In this document: one piece after another, positions 4,845 to 18,285 of the stretch
Numbering within the stretch: position 1 is the stretch's first letter
Layout of the letters: each line of letters starts with the position of its first letter
Source: Pedobacter sp. AJM
Lineage (GTDB): Bacteria; Bacteroidota; Bacteroidia; Sphingobacteriales; Sphingobacteriaceae
Assembly: GCF_002197755.1 (NCBI RefSeq)
Contig: NZ_NHOT01000001.1
Location: 186,001-250,000 of the forward strand
Direction of reading: 5' to 3'
DNA: 64,000 nt
Position numbers and translations under genes: made by a program
The notes under the pieces: generated by a model
What the model was told of the DNA's origin: nothing
Seen by the model: only the letters and a program-made list of their open reading frames with translations
Database searches by the model: none

Positions 4845-6287
4845 TTACCAAACATAAGTGGCAACAGTACCCTGATCCAGGCTGCTGGTTATTATTTTTC
4901 CTTTGTATTTAATGTTGAAATGGGTAGTGAAGCTATTGTTATTGCATACAATCAGCACATTTTTCCCATCTGGAGTTTTAAAAGCTACATTCTGCAAATT
5001 ATTGGTCAAATTAGATGCAATTCGCACTGATCCTGCCGGAACAAATTTAGAGGCGTGAGCAATAACATAATAGGCTACGTTTCTACTTATTGCAGGTGCA
5101 ATGGTAATTGCGCCTAAACATGATGTACAACCACCTTTATCTGTGTGTGGATTATAGCTTTGATCTGCAGCCAGATTCCATTCCAATACATTTCTGCTCC
5201 AGTTTCGGGTTGCCCCGATAATTAGTGTAGATACGTGCCATTTCAAATCTTCTGCAAAATTACTTGGTCCGCCCACCCACTGCTCAGTGAAATAAACATT
5301 TTTATCAGGGTGTGCATCATGAACTTTGGATAAAGCAGTGATCGGACCAGCATATAAGTGAAAGGCAGAACCATCTATATATTTTTTCGCCTCAGCATCG
5401 TTCAAAATGGTGATTGGATATTCAGGTTTATCAGCATTATGATCGTAGATGATGATTTTGGTTTTAATACCACTGTTTTTAAATACCGGACCTAAAGCTG
5501 TTTTAATAAAATTTGCCTGATCAGCAGCTGTCATGTACATGCTTGGATTATTCCCCGGGTGTAAAGGCTCGTTTTGAGGAGTAATGGCATCAATGACGAT
5601 ACCTTCTGCCTTCATGGCCTGGATGTATTTCACCAGGTATTTGGCATAGGTTTGATAATATTCCGGTTTCAAACTTCCTCCAATAAAGCTTTTATTCGTT
5701 TTCATCCAGGTTGGAGCTGTCCACGGTGAACCCAAAATTTTAATAGCAGGATTAATCGCTACAATTTTCTTTAATATTGGAATTAAATCTGCATGCTCTT
5801 TGGCAATCGAAAATTTAGCCAGTGCTTCATCGGTTTCGCCTTCTGCGATATCGTTATAAGTGAAGGGAGTAGCACTTAAATCAGAAGCACCGATACTGAT
5901 CCTGATGTAATTAACACGGATGGCCTGATCAGTATTGGCAAAGAGTTCATTCAACAGTTTATCTTTTTCCGTTGCAGGCAAAGCATTAATTAAAGTAGCA
6001 CTTCCACCTGTTAAGGTATAACCAAAACCATCAATGGTTTGAAATTTAGTTTCCGGGTCAACTTCAATCGTTGGATTTGAATTGGTTTCATCAGTGAAGT
6101 TCAGGGTGATATTTTGTTTCTGAAGCAATTGAGATTGGTCACCTTTGGTTAACCAGAAACCCACTTCACTTTTTTGGGAATTAGCATTGTTTTGTTGATT
6201 GGCTTCATTGCCTGATTTTACATTTCTGCTGGCGCAGGCAGATAATAGCAGACAGGTCACTAAACAAATATTGTAAATGAATTTCAT
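4845..6287 (-). CDS. GH30-family glycoside hydrolase lipoprotein
   Basis: The 480-residue product has a lipoprotein signal ending at Cys18 (LLSAC), so it should be anchored in a membrane, probably at the cell surface as in other Sus systems. The GH30 TIM barrel shows the acid/base Glu240 in TPQNEP and the nucleophile Glu335 in FTEQW, and a C-terminal beta-domain follows from about residue 400. GH30 includes glucosylceramidases and beta-1,6-glucanases. The minimal SusC-SusD-GH30 setting resembles known beta-1,6-glucan loci of Bacteroides, so beta-1,6-glucan is my preferred substrate, as inference only. A hairpin separates it from susD. Confidence 0.92.
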   Translation of the reverse strand: MKFIYNICLVTCLLLSACASRNVKSGNEANQQNNANSQKSEVGFWLTKGDQSQLLQKQNITLNFTDETNSNPTIEVDPETKFQTIDGFGYTLTGGSATLINALPATEKDKLLNELFANTDQAIRVNYIRISIGASDLSATPFTYNDIAEGETDEALAKFSIAKEHADLIPILKKIVAINPAIKILGSPWTAPTWMKTNKSFIGGSLKPEYYQTYAKYLVKYIQAMKAEGIVIDAITPQNEPLHPGNNPSMYMTAADQANFIKTALGPVFKNSGIKTKIIIYDHNADKPEYPITILNDAEAKKYIDGSAFHLYAGPITALSKVHDAHPDKNVYFTEQWVGGPSNFAEDLKWHVSTLIIGATRNWSRNVLEWNLAADQSYNPHTDKGGCTSCLGAITIAPAISRNVAYYVIAHASKFVPAGSVRIASNLTNNLQNVAFKTPDGKNVLIVCNNNSFTTHFNIKYKGKIITSSLDQGTVATYVW

Positions 6288-6384: not shown

Positions 6385-7809
6385 TTATTTGATGCTTGGA
6401 TTTCGGTCTACTTCTGCCTGCGGAATCGGGAACAATAACTTATCAGCGGTAACATTATAATTTAAGTTTGCACCATTACCGTTTTTCTGCGCATTCATAA
6501 CGGCGATTGCCCTATTTGTTCTTAATAAATCAAACCAACGGTGGCCTTCAAAAGCCAGTTCTAAACGGCGTTCCTTTTCAATGGCCAGACGCATGGATGG
6601 CTGATCATTTGCAGGAGTGGCGGTCAAATTTACGCGACGACGGATTTCATTTACCAGAGCAGCAGCAGCCGACCAGCCTGATGTACTTAGTTCATTTATG
6701 GCTTCTGCTTTGAGCAATTTAATGTCAGCCAGACGAAGAATATAAGAATTCGCTAAATCATCATTGCGGTATTTGTTGATAAACGGATAATTGGATTTGG
6801 TCCAGTAATCATCAGACCATCCTTCTGTGCTTACGTTTTTAAAGCTTATGCTGGAATTTTTGCGGATAGCATCACCTTCTGTATCAAAAGCAGCAACTAA
6901 ATCATTTGTAGGCGTACAAAAGCGTTTCCAGCCTGTACCTACAATTACGCCAGTCATCCAGTTTCCACGGCCATTCGGGCCGCCCCAGCCATCGTATTGC
7001 ATTTCCCAGATGGATTCACTGTTATTTTTATGTGCGCCATCAAACAGCTGATCAAAAGATCCCATCAGGTTATAACCACCATTTATCGTGGCATCAGCGT
7101 ATTGCTGTACTTTGCTCCAATCCGGATTTGGTTTTGAAGCATATACTTTTGCTAAAAGTGCATTAACAATCCCTTTGGTGATCATGCCTTTATTGGGCGC
7201 AGTGGAACGAACATTTGGTAAGGCAAACTCCAAATCCTTAATAATTTGCGCATAAACTGCTTCTACTGAAGAGCGGGGTTTTTGCATCTCTTCTAAAGAG
7301 GTTGGCGAGGTTAAAACCAAAGGAACACCTCCATATAACCTTACCAGGTGGAAATAAAAGTAAGCCCGTAATGTGGAAGCCTCACCTAAAATCTGATTTC
7401 TCCTGCCACTGGCATCCAAAGTAGGATCCTGAATGTTCGGAACATTTTCCAAAACTTCATTTGCATTTTTAATATTGGAATAAAGTCCACTCCAGTCGCG
7501 GCCAACATTGCCATTCGTTGAATTGGTGGTGAAAAGATCAATCTGGATATTTGCAGGGTTATCACCTCCTGCATAGGCATTATCTGCCGTAACATCACCA
7601 TTAACCATATAATCCCAAATGTGATAGTCGTTATACATACCACCATAAACGCCGGCCATTAATTTCTCTGCTGCCGCTGCAGTTGTAAAGGCTACATCTG
7701 CAGTAACTTGATTGAAAGGCTGTTTTTCAAGGAAACCTTTTTTGCATCCGCTTTGCAAAGTAATCGCTAATGCTGCGGTTGCCACTAATGAATATATTTT
7801 TAATTTCAT
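6385..7809 (-). CDS. SusD/RagB-family glycan-binding lipoprotein
   Basis: The 474-residue product is the surface lipoprotein that caps the SusC pore and captures glycan. The signal ends in a lipobox with Cys22 (QSGC). The N-terminal segment after it (FLEKQPFNQVT) and the C-terminal ERRLELAFEGHRWFDLLR block (about residues 412-429) are hallmarks of the RagB/SusD family. It starts 11 bases after the SusC stop, the standard coupled order. The GH30 gene follows. The sequence alone does not identify the ligand. Confidence 0.96.
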   Translation of the reverse strand: MKLKIYSLVATAALAITLQSGCKKGFLEKQPFNQVTADVAFTTAAAAEKLMAGVYGGMYNDYHIWDYMVNGDVTADNAYAGGDNPANIQIDLFTTNSTNGNVGRDWSGLYSNIKNANEVLENVPNIQDPTLDASGRRNQILGEASTLRAYFYFHLVRLYGGVPLVLTSPTSLEEMQKPRSSVEAVYAQIIKDLEFALPNVRSTAPNKGMITKGIVNALLAKVYASKPNPDWSKVQQYADATINGGYNLMGSFDQLFDGAHKNNSESIWEMQYDGWGGPNGRGNWMTGVIVGTGWKRFCTPTNDLVAAFDTEGDAIRKNSSISFKNVSTEGWSDDYWTKSNYPFINKYRNDDLANSYILRLADIKLLKAEAINELSTSGWSAAAALVNEIRRRVNLTATPANDQPSMRLAIEKERRLELAFEGHRWFDLLRTNRAIAVMNAQKNGNGANLNYNVTADKLLFPIPQAEVDRNPSIK

Positions 7810-7820
7810 TTTCTTAATCT

Positions 7821-10733
7821 TTAAAATCCAACATTAATACCGAACAATAAACTTCTTGATTGTGGATAAGTGCCATAATCAACACCCATCGATGGGCCAT
7901 TTGCTGAATTCATGTTCACTTCAGGATCCAGCCCTGAGTATTTTGTAAAAGTTAATAAGTTATACCCGGTAGCAAATACGGTTAGCTTGCTCATTTTTAG
8001 TTTTTCCAATACCGATGAGCTGAAACTGTATGAAAGCGTTGCGGTTTTTAAGCGCAGGTAAGAGGCATCTTCTACAAAACGGCTGGAAGTAAGGGAGTTT
8101 TCTGAGCTACTTCTTAATGCTTTTGGAATATTGGTGATTTGGCCTGGCGTAGTCCATCTGTTTAATACGGCTGTTGATTGATTTTTGGAATCGAACATAC
8201 CTTCGATATCAATTCTGGAGGCATTAAATAATTCACTACCCTGAACTCCCTGGAAGAAGAAATTAAATCCCCAGTTTCCATAAGTTAAATTATTAGTGAT
8301 ACCATAAATAAATTTCGGTTGTGCAGAACCAATAAAAGTTCTGTCGCCCGGATCTGCCGAGCCCGTAAGACCATTGCCATTGGTATCTGCATATTGTGCT
8401 GCTCCGTTGGCCGGATTCACACCTGTAAATACATAACCGTAAAAGCTGCCCAACGGCCTATCCGCTACTACGCGAACAGCATCGTCACGTTCGTAGATGC
8501 CGGCAAAGTTTAATGATTGTGTAGTGGCACCTAAATCGGTTACTTTATTCCGGTTGATGGAAAAATTCAAATCCGTAGTCCATTTGAATTGCTCACGATC
8601 AAAGTTCTTCGTTGACAAAACAAACTCCAAACCTTTGTTTTCCATCGCACCAACATTATAGGCCTGACTTCCAAAGCCTGATGATGGAGGCAACTGCACG
8701 TTAATTAAAAGATCATTTGTCTTTTTTAAATAAGCATCAGCAGTGAAGGTAATGCGGCTATTGAATAGGGTTAAATCCAAACCAATATTGGTCTGCGTGG
8801 TTTTTTCCCATGATAGGTTATCATTTGCAGGGTTTTGAAGGTTGTATTCACCCTGTGCATTTACATTGTAAAGTTTTAAGTAAGCATAATCGCCAATTCC
8901 TTCATCATTACCCACTTTACCCCAGCTACCGCGAAGTTTTAGATCATTGATGGTCTTACTTTCTTTCATGAAGTTCTCACCAGAAATTCTCCAGCCTGCT
9001 GAAAAGGACGGGAAGTAACCAAAACGGTTTTCTTTGGCAAATCTAGATGAGCCATCAGCCCTGAAGTTGGAACTGAATAAATACTTGCTATCGTAAGCAT
9101 AAGTAACCCTGGCCAGATAAGATTGTTTACTCCATTGTGCCCTTTGTGGCACTGTTAAAGCTACTGATGGTGCCGTTGGATTGCCGGATACATCATAAAA
9201 ACGAGTTAACTCATTATTTTTATATTGATAATCTGAAGATTGAATGGTGTAACCACCTGTTGCCGTAAAAGCATTTTTACTCACATTTTTGGTGTAATTT
9301 AAAATGTTTTCATTTAACCAAACATGGTCATTAGTGGTGTTATCTCGGTAAACGCCTCTTTCCTGACGGCCATAGGTGGTTAAGAAATTGTCAGTAGAAT
9401 ACTTGTAAAAGTTTCGATTAGCATTGGTACTGATCGTTGATTTGAAAAACAAATCTTTAGTGAAGTTAACTTGCGCACCAAAAGCCCCGATGAATCTGAA
9501 ATTACGGGTTTTGTTTTTAGATCCGAAAGCCAAAGCTAAAGGATTATCCCATCCACCCGCATTCGGGATCGTGGTGTATTGACCATTTGGCTCAAAAATA
9601 CCAATGGTAGGAGGCGTAGTTAGTGCGCCTAAAATAACCCCTCCACGAGAAACACTGCTGTTGTCACCAACATCAATAGAATTGCTGGAAGTTAACACCG
9701 CATTACCCGTCAATTTTAACCATGAGGTGATGTTTTGTGATCCGTTAAAGTTGGCCGTTAAACGATCCAGTTTTGCGGGGGCAACAACGCCTTTATCCTG
9801 CTGGTAACCTGTAGAAAAATAATACTGTCCCCCTTTTATGCCGCCAGAAATAGAAGCCTGATACTGGTTTTGTGTTCCCGTTCCAAAGGTTTCTTTCTGC
9901 CAGTCGGTATTGTTATTTCCACCAAAAGTAGTGTAACCCAATTCTTTCATCAAACCAATATATTGCTCATTGTTGAGTACATCTTGTTTTTGCCAGAAGT
10001 TAGAAAAACCCGTAAAGGCATTGAAAGCCACCTTTAATTTGCCAGCCGATCCCTTTTTAGTGGTAATCAAAACCACTCCATTCGCACCACTTGAACCATA
10101 AATAGCTGCTGCAGATGCATCTTTCAATATTGTCATGGATTCGATATCGTTGGCATTTAAAAAGCTCGCATCTCTGGAAGTCACTCCATCAATGACATAA
10201 AGCGGACTATTAGAGGCGGTAATTGATGTATTCCCTCTAATGCTGATGGAAATTCCTGCGCCTGGTTTACCTGATTGTGAACTTACCTGTACACCTGCTG
10301 CTCTACCCTGGATAGCTTGTAGCGGGTTAGTGATGGGCTGATTCTCTAGATCTTTTGATGAAACTGACACCACCGAAGTAGTCAGGTCTTTTTTAGTGGT
10401 GGTCCCATAGCCAATTACAACGACTTCATTGAGCTGTTGATTGTCATCCGACAAGGTAACATTAATGCTGGTTCTGTTATTTACGGATTCTTCTATCGCT
10501 TTGAATCCTATAAAAGAAAATTCAAGTATTGCATTCTGTGGTGTAGAAATGGTAAAAGTTCCGTTGTCTGATGTGGATGCACCCTGGTTTGAGCCTTTCA
10601 CTTTAACGGAAACACCAGGTAAAGGCAGACCTTTCTGATCCTTCACCTGGCCGGTTACGGTAATGTTTTGTGCCATACTCCATGAGATAGCGCCAATAAA
10701 AAATACCATAAGCAATGTAAACTTTTTTCTCAT
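7821..10733 (-). CDS. SusC/RagA-family TonB-dependent outer membrane transporter
   Basis: This is the outer membrane pore of the locus, importing oligosaccharides with TonB energy. I place the start at the ATG at 10733 (MRKKFTLLMVFF), which gives a clean signal peptide ending near SMAQ and 970 residues; an earlier ATG at 10778 would add 15 non-signal residues. A carboxypeptidase-D-like domain (ITVTGQVKDQKGLPLPGV) comes first, then the TonB box and plug (EVVVIGYGTTTKKDLT, AIQGRAAGVQV), then the beta-barrel ending in aromatic GINVGF. It is followed 11 bases later by susD. Two direct repeats lie in its upstream region. Confidence 0.96.
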   Translation of the reverse strand: MRKKFTLLMVFFIGAISWSMAQNITVTGQVKDQKGLPLPGVSVKVKGSNQGASTSDNGTFTISTPQNAILEFSFIGFKAIEESVNNRTSINVTLSDDNQQLNEVVVIGYGTTTKKDLTTSVVSVSSKDLENQPITNPLQAIQGRAAGVQVSSQSGKPGAGISISIRGNTSITASNSPLYVIDGVTSRDASFLNANDIESMTILKDASAAAIYGSSGANGVVLITTKKGSAGKLKVAFNAFTGFSNFWQKQDVLNNEQYIGLMKELGYTTFGGNNNTDWQKETFGTGTQNQYQASISGGIKGGQYYFSTGYQQDKGVVAPAKLDRLTANFNGSQNITSWLKLTGNAVLTSSNSIDVGDNSSVSRGGVILGALTTPPTIGIFEPNGQYTTIPNAGGWDNPLALAFGSKNKTRNFRFIGAFGAQVNFTKDLFFKSTISTNANRNFYKYSTDNFLTTYGRQERGVYRDNTTNDHVWLNENILNYTKNVSKNAFTATGGYTIQSSDYQYKNNELTRFYDVSGNPTAPSVALTVPQRAQWSKQSYLARVTYAYDSKYLFSSNFRADGSSRFAKENRFGYFPSFSAGWRISGENFMKESKTINDLKLRGSWGKVGNDEGIGDYAYLKLYNVNAQGEYNLQNPANDNLSWEKTTQTNIGLDLTLFNSRITFTADAYLKKTNDLLINVQLPPSSGFGSQAYNVGAMENKGLEFVLSTKNFDREQFKWTTDLNFSINRNKVTDLGATTQSLNFAGIYERDDAVRVVADRPLGSFYGYVFTGVNPANGAAQYADTNGNGLTGSADPGDRTFIGSAQPKFIYGITNNLTYGNWGFNFFFQGVQGSELFNASRIDIEGMFDSKNQSTAVLNRWTTPGQITNIPKALRSSSENSLTSSRFVEDASYLRLKTATLSYSFSSSVLEKLKMSKLTVFATGYNLLTFTKYSGLDPEVNMNSANGPSMGVDYGTYPQSRSLLFGINVGF

Positions 10734-10761: not shown

Positions 10762-10794
10762 GTAAAGTTACTATGCAATTCATGTTAAAAGCAA
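10762..10794 (-). promoter_or_regulatory. Candidate promoter of susC
   Basis: On the minus strand CTTG (around 10792-10795) is followed after about 22 bases by TAACTTTA (10770-10763), one base off the TAnnTTTG consensus. It would start transcription about 20-25 bases before the susC ATG at 10733. The weak match suits a promoter that needs an activator. Confidence 0.45.
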
Positions 10795-10852: not shown

Positions 10853-10870
10853 TGATACGCTTTAATACCG
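10853..10870. promoter_or_regulatory. Direct repeat copy 1 upstream of susC
   Basis: TGATACGCTTTAATACCG. It matches copy 2 at 10945-10962 in 17 of 18 positions, in the same orientation, and lies about 60 bases upstream of the candidate -33 element of susC. It is a good candidate for an activator-binding site. Confidence 0.6.
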
Positions 10871-10944
10871 CAATTATTGCAGGTCACTTCAGCCTGATAA
10901 TCAGTTATTAAATGCAAGGAATGGATACGGCTTCAGAACGATTT

Positions 10945-10962
10945 TGATACGCTTAAATACCG
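10945..10962. promoter_or_regulatory. Direct repeat copy 2 upstream of susC
   Basis: TGATACGCTTAAATACCG, same orientation as copy 1, starting 92 bases from it. A poorer partial match (GGATACGG) lies between the two at 10923. Both full copies fall between the end of the fusion regulator gene and the susC promoter. Confidence 0.6.
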
Positions 10963-11022: not shown

Positions 11023-12921
11023 TTATTCAATTACCAGCTGGCTCCAACCATTTTTACCACTTTTTTTAAGTGTTTTTTTCCGGTCTTCCATCACTTTTTT
11101 AATTCGTGATCCGAAGGTCCAGCAGGTGCTTTGTCTGATGGTTAGTAACTCTGAAAGCTTATGTGAAGAGATTTTTCCTTTTGATGAATAAATTAGGAAA
11201 ATCATATAGAAAGCTTTATTAATGGGAATCCTTGTATTGTGAAAAATGGTGTAGGTTGTAACCGATTCTTCATAACCGCATTTACTGCAGCGTCGGCTAT
11301 GTAAGATATGGCCGGTAAAATAATGATCATTACTGCATTTTCTGCAGTGGTAGCCATTTTTCCATTTGAGCTCAGCCAAAAATTCATAGCAGGTTTCTTT
11401 ATCAGGATAGATTTTACTAAACTCTTCAAAATCTACTTCGGTATTCATTACCCGGTCACGGGTTACTTTTTCTACACTGGTTTGTAACTCCTCATTATCC
11501 TGCTCCAGCAATACATTCATCCTGGAAATTTCTTCAGCTTGCTTCTGTAATAACATATTGGCTTCTTCCAAAGCCTGGTTTTTACTCTCAATAATTAAGG
11601 ATTTATGGAAAACATCACGTGTACGTTCTTCTACCTTACTTTCCAGTTCACGGTTAATGGTATCCTTTAAGGTGGCATTAACAGCCATTTGCCGAATAAT
11701 TTTTTGTTGAGCCTTATCTTTTTTTAACTTCAGAATCCGCACCTTATCGCCGATAGCGAAGGATAGGAAAACCATTTCCATGATAAAACAAAAACTAAGG
11801 CTATAATAACTGATTACCCCAAAGTTCAGCCAGTTGATACCCAGCATAATTAAGAACTTAAGCACAAAGCCTATAAACAGAAAGCTATAGCCGAGTACAA
11901 AAAAGCGGGCAGGTTTATAGCCATTTTTGTAAATATAAATTCCGGTGAAGAAAGCGACGGAAAGCGGTATAGCTTCTATAAATTTAAAACTAAATAAAGT
12001 CTGATCGAAAAGATAACAGTAGAAAAAAAAGATAATCCTTAAGGTGATTATGCCAGTAATTAACTTGTTTATTTTTGGCGCTTTCGATTTAATGAATAAT
12101 AATTCTCTGGTAAAAAGCAAAGCAAATATACTGGTGGCACAAAGTGCAAAAGCATAGGCAACCTGATTCCAGGTCGGTGCGTTTGGCCAAAGGTACTGAT
12201 AAGCAATACCATCAGTACTCATTTCAAAAAAGCCTACACTCAGATTGTACAGCACATAATATAGATATTGTTTCTGCCTGATGGCTACGTACATAATCAG
12301 GTTGTAGAAGCTGAAAACCAGAATCATGCCATAAAAAATACCGAAGTAAAAGTATTCATCAAGGGCATAGGAAATGAACCATTCCGCACTTCGTAATACA
12401 ATTATAATATCTGAAATCTGAGATGATTTGATCTTGAAATAGTAGGTCTGAATGCTGTTTCCATTATTTTTAATCGGAATTTCAAAATTTTTATGGTTAA
12501 TCAGCCTTTTGCTGAAATCATATGCATCACCAAGCTTTTTTTCCTGATATTTGCCGTCAGATTGTGGAATAAATGCGGTAATATGATCGATGGTCTGATC
12601 AAAAAATTCCAGTAAAAAAGGTTTCTCTACTTTTTCATTCTGCCTGATTTTGATCCTGAACCAATAAGTTTTATGGAGATTTTTGGTTTGAGGCGTGCTG
12701 GTAATACTGGCCTTAAAAAGTTGCTCAAATGCCTTACTGCTGATCTGATTAAATTCGAATTGACCGGCAGGATCTTCCAGTACTTCAATTTCTTTGAACG
12801 TAAAAATATGCTGTGGTACCGATTCCTGTATGGCTACAACTTTTTGTGCAAATAAATTCGACACACAACAGAGCAAAAAACTGAAGATCAGGAGTAATGC
12901 TTTTTTAAAGGATACAGGCAT
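11023..12921 (-). CDS. 7TMR-DISM membrane sensor fused to IS1595-type transposase zinc-ribbon DNA-binding region
   Basis: From ATG 12921 the product has 632 residues: a signal peptide ending near FAQ, a periplasmic DISMED2-like sugar-binding domain (about 28-178), a seven-helix 7TMR-DISM core (about 187-395), a long coiled coil (about 398-490), and a cytosolic C-terminus like the N-terminal part of IS1595/ISXO2-family transposases. That part has two CxxC knuckles (Cys526/529, Cys545/548), the TIFHNTRIPI motif and a helix-turn-helix (about 580-612). The DDE nuclease domain is absent, and so is any kinase core. I infer a membrane-bound transcription regulator that senses a glycan and binds DNA directly. 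It sits immediately before susC on the same strand. A longer TTG start at 12930 is possible. Confidence 0.85.
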   Translation of the reverse strand: MPVSFKKALLLIFSFLLCCVSNLFAQKVVAIQESVPQHIFTFKEIEVLEDPAGQFEFNQISSKAFEQLFKASITSTPQTKNLHKTYWFRIKIRQNEKVEKPFLLEFFDQTIDHITAFIPQSDGKYQEKKLGDAYDFSKRLINHKNFEIPIKNNGNSIQTYYFKIKSSQISDIIIVLRSAEWFISYALDEYFYFGIFYGMILVFSFYNLIMYVAIRQKQYLYYVLYNLSVGFFEMSTDGIAYQYLWPNAPTWNQVAYAFALCATSIFALLFTRELLFIKSKAPKINKLITGIITLRIIFFFYCYLFDQTLFSFKFIEAIPLSVAFFTGIYIYKNGYKPARFFVLGYSFLFIGFVLKFLIMLGINWLNFGVISYYSLSFCFIMEMVFLSFAIGDKVRILKLKKDKAQQKIIRQMAVNATLKDTINRELESKVEERTRDVFHKSLIIESKNQALEEANMLLQKQAEEISRMNVLLEQDNEELQTSVEKVTRDRVMNTEVDFEEFSKIYPDKETCYEFLAELKWKNGYHCRKCSNDHYFTGHILHSRRCSKCGYEESVTTYTIFHNTRIPINKAFYMIFLIYSSKGKISSHKLSELLTIRQSTCWTFGSRIKKVMEDRKKTLKKSGKNGWSQLVIE

Positions 12922-12927
12922 AAGATG

Positions 12928-12935
12928 CAAAGGTA
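12928..12935 (-). promoter_or_regulatory. Candidate -7 box of the fusion regulator
   Basis: TACCTTTG on the minus strand ends six bases before the ATG at 12921, in the 46-base gap after the histidine kinase gene. It would give the regulator its own promoter and an almost leaderless message. No clear -33 TTTG is seen, so part of the expression may be read-through from the kinase gene. Confidence 0.5.
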
Positions 12936-12976
12936 CAAATTTGTAGCTGGCCGATACAGATATAGTGCTGTTTAGA

Positions 12977-14287
12977 TTATACCTGAAAAATTAAGGAGAT
13001 GCTGGTGCCCTGTTGTTCAACAGATTTAATTTCGACATCAATTTTATGAAAACTGGCTATACTCTGTACAATGGCGAGGCCCAGGCCAAATCCGTTTTCT
13101 TCTGTATTTCCTCTTTTAAAACGATCGAAAGCATTGGCCACTAACTCCTCGCTCATGCCTAGTCCACTGTCTGAAATAGTTAATACATATTTTTGACCGG
13201 TGAGTAAACCTGTAACTGATAATTCTCCACCTTCCCGGTTATATTTAATGGCATTATTAATAATGTTCATCAATAATGTATGCATCAGGGCCTTATTTCC
13301 GATAAGTTGGTAATCATGATTTAAATTAATACTGTATTTGATTTTTTTATCTATGATTCTGTCTTCCAGGTCTTCATAAATGTCGCTGAGTTCCTGTGTC
13401 AGGCTTATTTCTTCCGTTTTCAGATATTGATTGTTTTCTACTTTCGAAATTAAAAGCAGGCTGTTAATGATTACCTTAAGCCGGTTTAGGGTTTTAATGG
13501 AAGCGTAGATTTTATTTTCATGCTCTACCGGAATTTCGGGCGTATTCAGCATGTTCTCGAAACGGGTACTCAGAATAGAGATTGGGGTTAATAATTCATG
13601 TGAAACATTCGCGATAAACTGCTTTTCGAGTGCAAAAAGCGTATTGATTTTTCGCATGAGTGTATTTACACTGTTATCGAGCATTTTAAAATCCTCAGTA
13701 GTGGTGGGGATATTCTGGTAATTATAATGCAATGGATCATCAACCTTATTGATTTTTTTATCGATGATCAGGTAAAAAGGTTTGAGTAAATAATTTGAAA
13801 AGGCATAGTCAGCTATTAAAGTGATCAAAAGGGCAATAACCAGTACTATGAGCGTATAAAAGCGAATGGAATTTTTAATTGACTGTAATGTAGTCATGGT
13901 TTCGCCAATTTCAAGATTATACCAGTTGGTGTGGTAAGAGAATTTATAATTCAGAATCCGGTAAACTTCAATATTGCCTTCAATTTCACGCCTCTCTGTG
14001 TAAACAGTTGCTGACGAGTCCTTTTGGTTGTCAGGAATATCCTGTAAAACAATAAACTCTTCTTTTAATATGTTATAATCGGTAAAGGAATCCTGATTAT
14101 TAAGCAAGCTATCAATCTCACTGTCGGTCAGGTTTTTGATAATCTTATTCTTTTTTTTGATCAGTCGGTTATCCAGTTGATTGTAGGCCAGTTTTTCCAG
14201 TGAAAACAAAATGGCAGCCCCTAAAAGCAATATGATCGCAATTTTAGTGACTGCATTATATAAAGAAAACTTAACCTGTAATTTCAT
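12977..14287 (-). CDS. Sensor histidine kinase
   Basis: The 436-residue protein has two membrane helices (about 12-30 and 142-164) enclosing a periplasmic sensor of about 110 residues with no domain I can name. A HisKA domain follows with phospho-acceptor His230 in FIANVSHELLTP, then the ATPase core with N-box NIINNAIKYN (341-350), G1 DSGLGM (373-378) and G2 GFGLGLAI (399-406). It is a classical OmpR-partner kinase and is complete. The response regulator gene lies upstream on the same strand, but 285 bases apart, so the pair may not be strictly co-transcribed. I see nothing else in that gap. Confidence 0.95.
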   Translation of the reverse strand: MKLQVKFSLYNAVTKIAIILLLGAAILFSLEKLAYNQLDNRLIKKKNKIIKNLTDSEIDSLLNNQDSFTDYNILKEEFIVLQDIPDNQKDSSATVYTERREIEGNIEVYRILNYKFSYHTNWYNLEIGETMTTLQSIKNSIRFYTLIVLVIALLITLIADYAFSNYLLKPFYLIIDKKINKVDDPLHYNYQNIPTTTEDFKMLDNSVNTLMRKINTLFALEKQFIANVSHELLTPISILSTRFENMLNTPEIPVEHENKIYASIKTLNRLKVIINSLLLISKVENNQYLKTEEISLTQELSDIYEDLEDRIIDKKIKYSINLNHDYQLIGNKALMHTLLMNIINNAIKYNREGGELSVTGLLTGQKYVLTISDSGLGMSEELVANAFDRFKRGNTEENGFGLGLAIVQSIASFHKIDVEIKSVEQQGTSISLIFQV

Positions 14288-14572
14288 GGGGTGTTGGTTA
14301 GGTGTTTTATGTGGAGGTTAGGTTAGAGTTAGTATTTAGAATGGTTAGTTATTCATGTTGTATCAAATTGATAAGATATAGAATTGTTTAGGTGTTGAGC
14401 GTCAAAAAGGCATTAATCGTATAAATTTAAAGTTTAGTAATCACATTAATATCTTTTCAACTCCAGTTTATCGCCTGATCATAATAAACTGCGAACAGCC
14501 AATTGAAAGCTTTTTCTGCGGTCTTGAAATACTAATCCGCTAACCAATTTTATTACCTTACCATCTTTTAGC

Positions 14573-15250
14573 TTAACAATTAATCCTGTATCCGATACTT
14601 CTTACCGTTTCAAACCAGTCTATATTTGCGGTTGCAGCCAGTTTTTTACGTAAATTTTTAACATGCACATCAACAAAATTAGAATCAGAATTGACTTCTA
14701 ATATATCGCCCCAAACGTGTTCAGTTAAGCTCATTCTCGATACCACACGGTTTTTATTCAATACCAAATAGTTAAATATTTCGAACTCTTTTTTGGTTAA
14801 GTTCAGGCGTTCTTCTCCAAAAGAAACAGTACGATTTTGAATGCTTAACAGGAAGTTATGAATGTTAACCTCATTTTTCTCCAGTTTATGTTTCCTCCTG
14901 GTGATGGCATGCATGCGGGCTAAAAGTTCATTTAATGAAAAAGGTTTGGGTAAATAATCATCAGCACCTTCATCCAAACCTTTGATACGGTCATCAACCG
15001 CACTCCTGGCAGTTAAAATAATCACGGCATCATCGCGGTCTTTCATTGCTTTAAGCTGTTTTAAAACCTCAAAGCCATCGCCGTCTGGTAAACCTAAATC
15101 CAGCAGAATAAAATCGTAGTTGTTCACGAAGATCTTCTCTTCTGCAGATGATTTTTTCCAGGCATGTTCTACTATGAACCCTTCTTTGCTCAGAAATTCA
15201 TCCATTTCAAGCGCAAGGCTTTTTTCATCTTCTACTATTAAAACATTCAT
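14573..15250 (-). CDS. OmpR/PhoB-family response regulator
   Basis: The 225-residue product has a receiver domain (1-115) with acidic pocket VEDE (6-9), phospho-acceptor Asp51 in LLDLGLPDGDG and the conserved Lys in PKPF. The winged-helix DNA-binding domain follows (about 130-225) with the typical LTKKEFEIFNYLV and VDVHVKNLRKKL segments. It should act with the kinase encoded downstream. Whether it controls the nearby susC locus or an unlinked target cannot be told. Its spacer on the 5' side carries short TTAGTATC repeats. Confidence 0.95.
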   Translation of the reverse strand: MNVLIVEDEKSLALEMDEFLSKEGFIVEHAWKKSSAEEKIFVNNYDFILLDLGLPDGDGFEVLKQLKAMKDRDDAVIILTARSAVDDRIKGLDEGADDYLPKPFSLNELLARMHAITRRKHKLEKNEVNIHNFLLSIQNRTVSFGEERLNLTKKEFEIFNYLVLNKNRVVSRMSLTEHVWGDILEVNSDSNFVDVHVKNLRKKLAATANIDWFETVRSIGYRINC

Positions 15251-15331
15251 TTAGTATCCAGTATTTAGTATCAGGTATTAAAACTATACGAAGAATATCA
15301 TCGCTTGTCTGTTAACTTTAGTCTTTCCGCT

Positions 15332-16531
15332 TTAAGCTTTTTGTTCGAGAACTAAGTTAATATTTTTAAGGATAATGTTACAGGCTTCCTCAATTTCTGT
15401 TTTAGTGATGATAAGGGGAGGGGCAATACGCATCGAATTGCTGCAATGCAGAAACCAATCGGATAGTACACCGTCTAAAATACAGGCATCGATGATTTTT
15501 TTATTCATTTCGAAACTTTCAAATTCAACTGCCAGCATCAGGCCTTTTCCTCTGATTTCTTTTATGGCCGGGTGTTTTAAAAGTGATTTGAATAGTTGAC
15601 CTTTCTCTTCTACTTCATCCACAATGTTATTGTCGACTAAAGTGCTCAATGTCGCCAAACCGGCTGCGCAACACACCGGATGGCCACCAAAGGTAGTCAT
15701 ATGCCCTAAAATCGGGTTATGCGATAGTACAGACATAATTTCCAGCGAACTGATAAAAGCACCGATTGGCATGCCGCCACCAATTCCTTTTGCCAGCAGC
15801 AACACATCGGGTATAACGTTATAATGCTCGAAGGCAAACATTTTACCACTTCTACCGAAACCTGATTGGATCTCATCAAAAATAAGCAAGGTTCCTGTTT
15901 CCAAGCATTTTGCTTTTAATGCCTGCATGTATGCGAGGTCGGCTACGCGGATGCCAGCTTCTCCTTGAATGGGTTCAATAAAAACAGCTGCAATTTCCTC
16001 TGTTATCTTAATTAAATCGGCCATATGATTATGCCTGATAAAGTCGACATGCGGTAAAAAAGGCCCATAGCCTGATGAATAGAAATCACTTTCCATTAAA
16101 CTTTCTGCACCTTGGGTACTGCCATGATAAGCATTTTTGCAGGCAATAAAGCCTTTTCTTCCCGTATAACGTTTAGCTAACTTCATGGCGCCTTCAACAG
16201 CCTCGGTACCGGAGTTCAGAAAATAAGTGCAGCTTAAACTTTCAGGAAGAACCTCTGCCAGCGCTTTAGCGAAATTAACCTGAGGTGTCTGCACATATTC
16301 ACCATATACCATCAGGTGCATATAGGTTTCGGCTTGTTGCTGAACGGCTTTAACCACAGCCGGATGACAGTGGCCAACATTGCTCACACCAATACCTGCA
16401 ATTAAATCTAAATGCTTTTTGTCTGATGAATCATAAATATAAACGCCTTTTGCCCGTACAAATTCGAGCATAAGCGGTTCGGGAGAGGTTTGTGCATTGT
16501 GTTGTAAAAACAACTGACGTTGAGTAAGCAT
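15332..16531 (-). CDS. Class III PLP-dependent aminotransferase (acetylornithine/ornithine type)
   Basis: This 399-residue enzyme transfers an amino group using pyridoxal phosphate. The phosphate-cup segment NSGTEAVEGAMKLA, the FDEIQSGFGRSGK motif with the cofactor-contacting Asp, and the LLAKGIGGGMPIGAF block containing the Schiff-base Lys are all visible. I use the ATG at 16531 (MLTQRQLFLQHNAQTS), since the longer frame adds 19 Cys-rich residues unlike the family. It resembles acetylornithine and ornithine aminotransferases, but the substrate is not decided by sequence and no arg genes are near. It lies 66 bases after a Spy-like gene. Confidence 0.9.
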   Translation of the reverse strand: MLTQRQLFLQHNAQTSPEPLMLEFVRAKGVYIYDSSDKKHLDLIAGIGVSNVGHCHPAVVKAVQQQAETYMHLMVYGEYVQTPQVNFAKALAEVLPESLSCTYFLNSGTEAVEGAMKLAKRYTGRKGFIACKNAYHGSTQGAESLMESDFYSSGYGPFLPHVDFIRHNHMADLIKITEEIAAVFIEPIQGEAGIRVADLAYMQALKAKCLETGTLLIFDEIQSGFGRSGKMFAFEHYNVIPDVLLLAKGIGGGMPIGAFISSLEIMSVLSHNPILGHMTTFGGHPVCCAAGLATLSTLVDNNIVDEVEEKGQLFKSLLKHPAIKEIRGKGLMLAVEFESFEMNKKIIDACILDGVLSDWFLHCSNSMRIAPPLIITKTEIEEACNIILKNINLVLEQKA

Positions 16532-17724: not shown

Positions 17725-18285
17725 TTAATAATCTATTTCATCATTTGTAATAAAAGCTTCAATTTTTTTTGCAGCAATATGGAATGATGCTTTTAACGCC
17801 CCAACTGATGTGCCCAGTACTTCCGAAATCTCCTCATATTTCATGTCTCCAAAATATTTCATGTTGAAAATCAGACGTTGCTTTTCGGGCAGGGTAAGAA
17901 TGGCTTTTTGCAATTTTAATTCTAATTTATCTCCATTAAAATATGACGAAGCTACGAGGTTTTCAGCCAGTTCTGCAGAAACCTCATCCAAAGGAGTATT
18001 GTTTTTTAGTTTTTGTTTATTGAGGAAAGTGATGGATTCATTTGTGGCAATGCGATAAATCCAGGTATACAGTTGCGAATCGTTTCTAAATTTATCAATA
18101 TTCTTCCACACCTTTACAAATACCTCCTGTAATAAATCGTCACAGTCATCATGGTTGAGTACCAATCGCCTGATGTGCCAGTAAATTTTCTGCTGATATT
18201 TTTTTAATAGTAAATTGAAAGCTTCATCGCGGGTTTTCTCGACGGCAAACATTTCAAGAATTTGCGAATCTTCAATTGGTTTCAT
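17725..18285 (-). CDS. ECF-type RNA polymerase sigma factor
   Basis: The 186-residue protein has sigma region 2 (about 25-95, with DDLLQEVFVKVWKNIDKF and TWIYRIATNES) and region 4 (about 130-180, LPEKQRLIFNMKYFGDMKYEEISEVLGTS) without regions 1 or 3, the ECF layout. It should direct RNA polymerase to a small regulon, probably envelope-related given the membrane protein and Spy-like gene directly downstream (gap of 33 bases to the next ATG). The start ATG at 18285 is supported by family length. Confidence 0.94.
   Translation of the reverse strand: MKPIEDSQILEMFAVEKTRDEAFNLLLKKYQQKIYWHIRRLVLNHDDCDDLLQEVFVKVWKNIDKFRNDSQLYTWIYRIATNESITFLNKQKLKNNTPLDEVSAELAENLVASSYFNGDKLELKLQKAILTLPEKQRLIFNMKYFGDMKYEEISEVLGTSVGALKASFHIAAKKIEAFITNDEIDY

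Follow-up and report, generated by a model that had tools for sequence, protein, structure and literature searches.

A seven-helix receptor joined to the DNA-binding module of an IS1595-type transposase, a candidate regulator of polysaccharide-utilization loci in Pedobacter and its relatives

Regulators described for polysaccharide-utilization loci (PULs) include the "hybrid two-component systems" (HTCS), the extracytoplasmic function (ECF) sigma/anti-sigma systems (PMC10766802), and the SusR type, exemplified in PMC5481569 by BT3309, a regulator beside SusCD and the GH30_3 enzyme BT3312 (glycoside hydrolase family 30) in the 1,6-beta-glucan locus of Bacteroides thetaiotaomicron. In a stretch of 64,000 nucleotides from Pedobacter sp. 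AJM (contig NZ_NHOT01000001.1, positions 186,001 to 250,000; hereafter the window), a gene at 11023..12921 joins a membrane receptor of the 7TMR-DISM type to the DNA-binding half of an IS1595-type transposase. Judged from its sequence and surroundings, this fusion is most probably a membrane-anchored one-component activator that acts on paired sites before susC and switches on a susC-susD-GH30 series for fragments of beta-1,6-glucan. It probably also represents an undescribed class of PUL regulator, comprising DNA-binding seven-helix receptors with a domesticated IS1595 module that was captured perhaps once, has spread over the Bacteroidia, serves as an exchangeable output for two or more unrelated types of sensor, and acts on a tandem operator in helical register with the promoter and sometimes on distant operons. 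The initial annotation had proposed a one-component regulator, and this idea gains support from the conserved site pair, its co-occurrence with the fusion across genomes, its copies before like operons at a distance and the phasing with the promoter. No paper on a DISM-IS1595 fusion was among the matches listed for the open-licence PubMed Central literature, subscription papers lying outside the search.

With the 7TMR-DISM receptors of the RetS, LadS and SagS type, the fusion has in common the architecture of a DISMED2 domain and seven transmembrane helices (7TM). Whereas 18 other DISM genes of the genus end in kinase- or receiver-like segments, as judged by eye from their last 60 residues, the fusion ends in a zinc ribbon and a helix-turn-helix (HTH). 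These elements follow each other with the same cysteines in the IS1595/ISXO2 transposases but, unlike them, the fusion has no DDE catalytic domain and is joined to a receptor. As in the HTCS, a putative membrane glycan sensor stands beside SusCD, and a variant from locus L144 carries Reg_prop and Y_Y_Y, the sensor type of classical HTCS regulators. None of the HTCS domains HisKA, HATPase, receiver and AraC is matched in the fusion by Pfam at E 0.1, so that no phosphorelay is expected. Since BT3309 is of the SusR type, a different type of protein appears to fill the regulator's place here. Membrane sensing of glycans for the control of SusC/D, as proposed for the fusion, is also a feature of the ECF-sigma/anti-sigma systems (PMC10766802), but unlike those systems the fusion has no sigma or anti-sigma domain by Pfam.

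The domains of the fusion protein follow the order signal-peptide-like helix, DISMED2, 7TM, coiled coil, IS1595-type zinc ribbon and HTH, and stop codons crowd the plus strand of 11023-12921; the frame, for which the initial annotation named no strand, is on the minus one. Residue numbers of Pfam and NCBIfam matches below refer to the form of 635 amino acids (aa), and those of the full-length AlphaFold2 model to the 632-aa form.

11023..12921, minus strand: fusion gene, 632 aa from ATG, or 635 aa if translation begins at TTG 12930
12394..12792, minus strand: DISMED2, periplasmic sensor domain, residues 47-179 (Pfam 105.3 bits, cut-off 22)
11743..12357, minus strand: 7TMR-DISM_7TM, seven helices, residues 192-396 (Pfam PF07695, 153.7 bits, cut-off 29; helices in the AlphaFold2 model)
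11482..11742, minus strand: coiled-coil-like signalling helix, residues about 397-483 (unbroken AlphaFold2 helix 370-480 of 632, its end of low confidence)
11272..11403, minus strand: Zn_ribbon_IS1595, residues 510-553 (Pfam PF12760, 27.7 bits, cut-off 25.4)
11068..11238, minus strand: HTH part of an IS1595 transposase, residues 565-621 (NCBIfam NF033547 match; helices in the AlphaFold2 model)

As the initial annotation had read from the letters, a sensor and the DNA-binding half of a transposase thus share one frame, with all three Pfam domains above their cut-offs, and residues 510-553, with zinc cysteines at 529, 532, 548 and 551, exceed the curated threshold for the IS1595 zinc ribbon to which that reading had assigned the C-terminal part. 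The adjoining HTH corresponds to positions 1-60 of the 215 in the NCBIfam model transpos_IS1595 (30 bits, under the cut-off of 75), and the remaining 155 positions of the model are absent from the protein. The absence of the nuclease domain, also claimed from the start, is borne out in that Pfam finds no DDE/ISXO2-like catalytic domain (PF12762) in the fusion at E 0.1; this domain is present by Pfam in the transposases of loci L123 and L128. Lacking it, the fusion is not classed as a transposase. In the AlphaFold2 model of the full protein an N-terminal helix and a beta sandwich are followed by seven helices, the last of them prolonged as a rod to residue 480, with low confidence at residues 465-500. 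The best fold match of the carbohydrate-binding-like DISMED2 sandwich is the periplasmic domain of RetS. Structure prediction of the C-terminus, a check that the initial annotation had proposed, gives a confident fold for the 136 C-terminal aa modelled alone (pLDDT 87). By domain homology, therefore, sensor and DNA-binding domain lie in one membrane protein, as in a membrane one-component regulator.

Evidence for a candidate DNA target of this protein comes from the gap between the fusion gene and susC, in which the following features are predicted.

10946..10961, minus strand: predicted operator site 1, GGTATTTAAGCGTATC, conserved motif match
10894..10904, minus strand: palindrome CTGATTATCAG, between sites 1 and 2
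10854..10869, minus strand: predicted operator site 2, GGTATTAAAGCGTATC, 92 bp from site 1, conserved
10764..10794, minus strand: predicted susC promoter, TTG-N21-TAACTTT; 76 of 85 distinct pairs have a similar element, placed at one of three distances

The two sites are copies of GGTR-N6-CGTATC, and in an alignment of the gap from 39 loci the block of GGT and CGTATC is invariant. The window holds two matches to this motif where 0.08 are expected, and none of 100 shuffles contained it twice. Genome-wide the single motif is uninformative, with 8 matches against 12 for a backward control; the pair alone is informative. At loci where GH30 is the next gene, mostly of Mucilaginibacter type, the pair lies before GH30 with another upstream half, mostly G[TC]GA. 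All these patterns were drawn from alignments and then counted, and the counts ignore kinship. Among 134 distinct fusions (146 instances merged by their last 300 residues), 84 have two NCGTATY cores at a spacing of 84-99 bp and less than 500 bp upstream of SusC or GH30, as compared with 1, 0, 0, 0, 0 and 0 for six scrambled motifs. When spacings of 20-300 bp were scanned, 94 of 144 pairs fell at 80-104 bp, where four scrambled motifs gave 2, 0, 0 and 2; the spacings cluster at 86-94 bp, and another five pairs form a minor peak at 79. Eight paralogue loci (L155, L160, L164, L167, L168, L170, L172 and L173), whose alignment contains core-like blocks that are partly altered, contribute to neither the 84-99 bp nor the 80-104 bp tally. 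The sequence TGNNNATCA, the core of the palindrome CTGATTATCAG of the window, occurs in 40 of 62 SusC pairs at a distance of 42-43 bp ahead of site 2, and the palindrome may bind another factor.

The position of the pair relative to the promoter is likewise constrained. Of 85 distinct SusC or GH30 pairs, 76 have an element of the form TTG-N18-22-TAnnTTT, taken here as the Bacteroidetes promoter of the -33/-7 type, no more than 120 bp from site 2; the other nine have no match. The distance from the core of site 2 to TTG is 44 bp in 5 pairs, 54-56 bp in 37 and 66-67 bp in 34, with none between. These steps of about 11 bp, or one helical turn, suggest a protein that has to face the polymerase on a fixed side of the helix. 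At least six changes between the three spacing states are needed on a quick tree of 70 fusions.

Large scale comparison of genomes provides a further line of evidence. Among 300 genomes of the order, 140 match a profile of the fusion C-terminus at 1e-20 and at least 137 carry the fusion, three having been left out (G114, with a frame of 263 aa, and G529 and G611, with weak scores). A stricter form of the pair pattern, searched in the same genomes, was found in 85 of them, as compared with 6 for its backward control. It is present in 72 of the 137 carriers vs 13 of the 163 others (Fisher p 2.8e-18); as the rate in non-carriers exceeds the backward control, there is also a real background. Within 12 kb of a listed fusion lie 62 of the 94 pairs, and all 19 remaining pairs of fusion-carrying genomes were examined, together with one of the 13 non-carrier pairs. 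Four of the 19 stand directly before GH30-GH16 operons (L228, L229, L230 and L232, with L229 and L230 of the same sequence) and two, which are alike, directly before GH16-GH16 (L231 and L243). Others precede a GH5 gene with a fusion nearby (L235), SusC (L234, L236 and L237, of which L234 and L237 are beside fusions outside the list) or genes of alginate-lyase type (L233 and L239). Seven look like chance (L238, L240-L242 and L244-L246), and the single non-carrier pair (L247) lies among unlabelled genes.

The genes around the fusion suggest what such a regulator may control. In the window susC, susD and GH30 follow it downstream, and a kinase and a response regulator lie upstream.

7821..10733, minus strand: susC, start taken as ATG 10733, the listed open reading frame (ORF) running from TTG 10778 (TIGR04056, 865 bits)
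6385..7809, minus strand: susD (Pfam SusD_RagB)
4845..6287, minus strand: GH30, endo-1,6-beta-glucanase-like (Glyco_hydro_30; NF053856, 409 bits, cut-off 700)
12977-14287: histidine kinase, directly upstream of the fusion
14573-15250: OmpR-type response regulator, upstream of the fusion beyond the kinase

A sigma-like ORF, named by eye, lies several genes from the fusion at 17725-18285. SusC genes are numerous in this genome, which has 56 matches above the family cut-off. Among the 128 fusions with at least four downstream ORFs, 70 are followed by SusC as the next codirectional gene, and 93 have a codirectional GH30 on either side. As the set of 134 loci leans to close relatives, an even draw from the family gives the fairer count. 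This draw yielded 55 distinct fusions, 51 with readable flanks, of which 33 have SusC as the next gene, 41 have a glycan gene of any kind in that position, and all 51 have one within 8 downstream or 5 upstream ORFs. Outside the family, draws from the class and phylum gave ten fusions, and a glycan gene (GH81, GH3, PF10091 (Glycoamylase) or SusCD) is nearby in all nine with readable flanks. Only two fusions of the whole set have no glycan gene nearby (L046 and L079). Neighbours in other clades include GH16, GH5, GH3, GH2, GH97, alginate lyases, PF10091 and GH81, and a match to the Pfam family Pom (Protochlamydia outer membrane protein) recurs after GH30-GH16 in Mucilaginibacter-type loci (L048:16812-17702 and related).

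Other DISM genes served as a control. Of 33 DISM matches in 13 genomes of the genus, 20 that were not known as fusions were examined; among the other 13, seven were known or likely fusions and six were left out. The 20 turned out to include two fusions, one beside SusCD-GH3-GH30 (L253) and one without a labelled gene (L252). For the other 18, no labelled glycan gene lies among the nearest 5 ORFs downstream and 3 upstream, a span narrower than that used for the fusions, so that only the comparison of next genes is like for like: susC follows 33 of 51 fusions vs 0 of 18 other DISM genes. The linkage to susC in the initial annotation thus stands, in the refined form that the fusion accompanies glycan-use genes generally, GH30 as much as susC.

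The same output is also found on another sensor. Near a DISM fusion, locus L144 encodes a protein of 1078 aa (12896-16132) in which Reg_prop and Y_Y_Y are joined to the same coiled coil and zinc-ribbon/HTH, the zinc ribbon scoring 24.6 bits, slightly below the cut-off of 25.4. Among 120 matches listed out of 1364 are three such proteins: that of L144 itself, one in Desertivirga brevis and a partial one in a Daejeonella bin. As both sensors are of glycan type, the occurrence of one output on the two gives independent support for its regulatory role.

The fusion is not a chance product but a conserved family. Its protein has 2332 homologues at E 0.001, a total that may include other DISM proteins; the best 120 of them align over 95-100% of the query and are nearly all from Pedobacter where named. 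One of these 120 carries the label Agrobacterium, and public records name some homologues "chromosome partitioning protein ParA" or "sensor histidine kinase LadS", with which the domains disagree. A scan of genome contigs, in which 80 of 116 relatives were retained, also places the fusion in Mucilaginibacter, Chitinophaga and others. A draw of 295 genomes from the class gave 59 with a match at 1e-5; ten of these have frames of 623-718 aa, and most others have transposase-like frames of about 300 aa. The eight divergent fusions checked by Pfam all have the three domains, with the zinc ribbon under its cut-off in five. All 132 long-frame domains compared, that of the Reg_prop protein of L144 among them, retain the four zinc cysteines, as do 36 or 37 of the 37 shorter domains, which come from 36 proteins of transposase length and from one half of a fusion gene broken into ORFs of 267 aa and 355 aa (L189:4190-6111).

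A tree of 89 domains, 45 from fusions and 44 others, nests the fusions within the IS1595-type transposases, together with two short zinc-ribbon proteins. The fusion label needs two changes on this tree, of which the starred branches force only one, and a single capture of the IS1595 module is possible; with so few columns (136) the tree is only suggestive as to origin. Two short proteins whose sole Pfam match is the zinc ribbon (L184:4959-5438 and L188:1194-1607) are placed within the fusion branch or next to it. Free-standing zinc-ribbon/HTH-like proteins of about 155 aa (L190:4435-4899 and L191:4831-5298), for which the lengths of neighbouring genes agree in two genomes, are possibly another domesticated form. 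Genome G760 has fourteen diverged copies of an IS1595-type transposase (L208-L221) that are among the nearest transposases to the fusion C-terminus. Transposon ends were considered as a source of the operator, and terminal inverted repeats of at least 15/18 were found in 8 of 28 IS1595-type loci, without convincing likeness to the operator by eye.

Nesting among transposases would also be expected if the gene were a transposon relic or a live insertion in a sensor gene without a regulatory role. This explanation is, however, highly improbable and largely contradicted by conservation, as the C-terminus stays in frame across genera and ranks among the best conserved parts of the protein, the DDE domain is absent, and the full-length fusion exists in one copy in its genome. 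A less remote but still unlikely alternative is that another regulator binds the paired sites, either the adjacent kinase/OmpR-type pair or a global factor, and that the fusion has some other function, such as that of an adaptor. In the clade of the window the kinase and response regulator do lie directly upstream, but the kinase adjoins only 20 of the 134 fusions (4 of 55 in the family draw), as compared with site pairs for 84 of the 134, and across genomes the pair tracks the fusion.

Control in the opposite direction, by a repressor that sits at the sites and is released on ligand binding, seems marginally less likely still. The sequence itself does not reveal whether control is positive or negative, but in the 76 of 85 SusC or GH30 pairs for which a promoter is predicted, the core of site 2 precedes the -33 element by 44-67 bp, at distances that differ by helical turns, and stays clear of the promoter, a position that suits an activator. 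Weighing against activation through the paired sites are the 45 of 134 fusions for which no pair was detected, including all nine of the most distant ones, at 41% identity or less; by eye, loci L121, L124 and L126 have no common pair.

As an activator, the fusion would operate in the following way. GH30 and SusCD would deliver gluco-oligosaccharides to the periplasm, where DISMED2 may bind an oligosaccharide; the 7TM and coiled coil could relay this signal by resetting a dimer, so that the zinc-ribbon/HTH dimer would engage the tandem sites and the bound fusion would recruit RNA polymerase at the susC promoter. Beta-1,6-glucan is the candidate ligand because of the GH30 neighbour, and the same type of protein likely serves other glycans in other clades.

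The fusion adds a candidate class to the regulators of PULs, one that is common in the Bacteroidota family of the window and, with a predicted operator, a candidate ligand and candidate target operons, is directly testable. The family would also provide a better name for the proteins that currently bear the labels "chromosome partitioning protein ParA" or "LadS". If the proposed role is correct, it would represent a bacterial case in which the DNA-binding domain of a transposase has been made the output of a membrane receptor.
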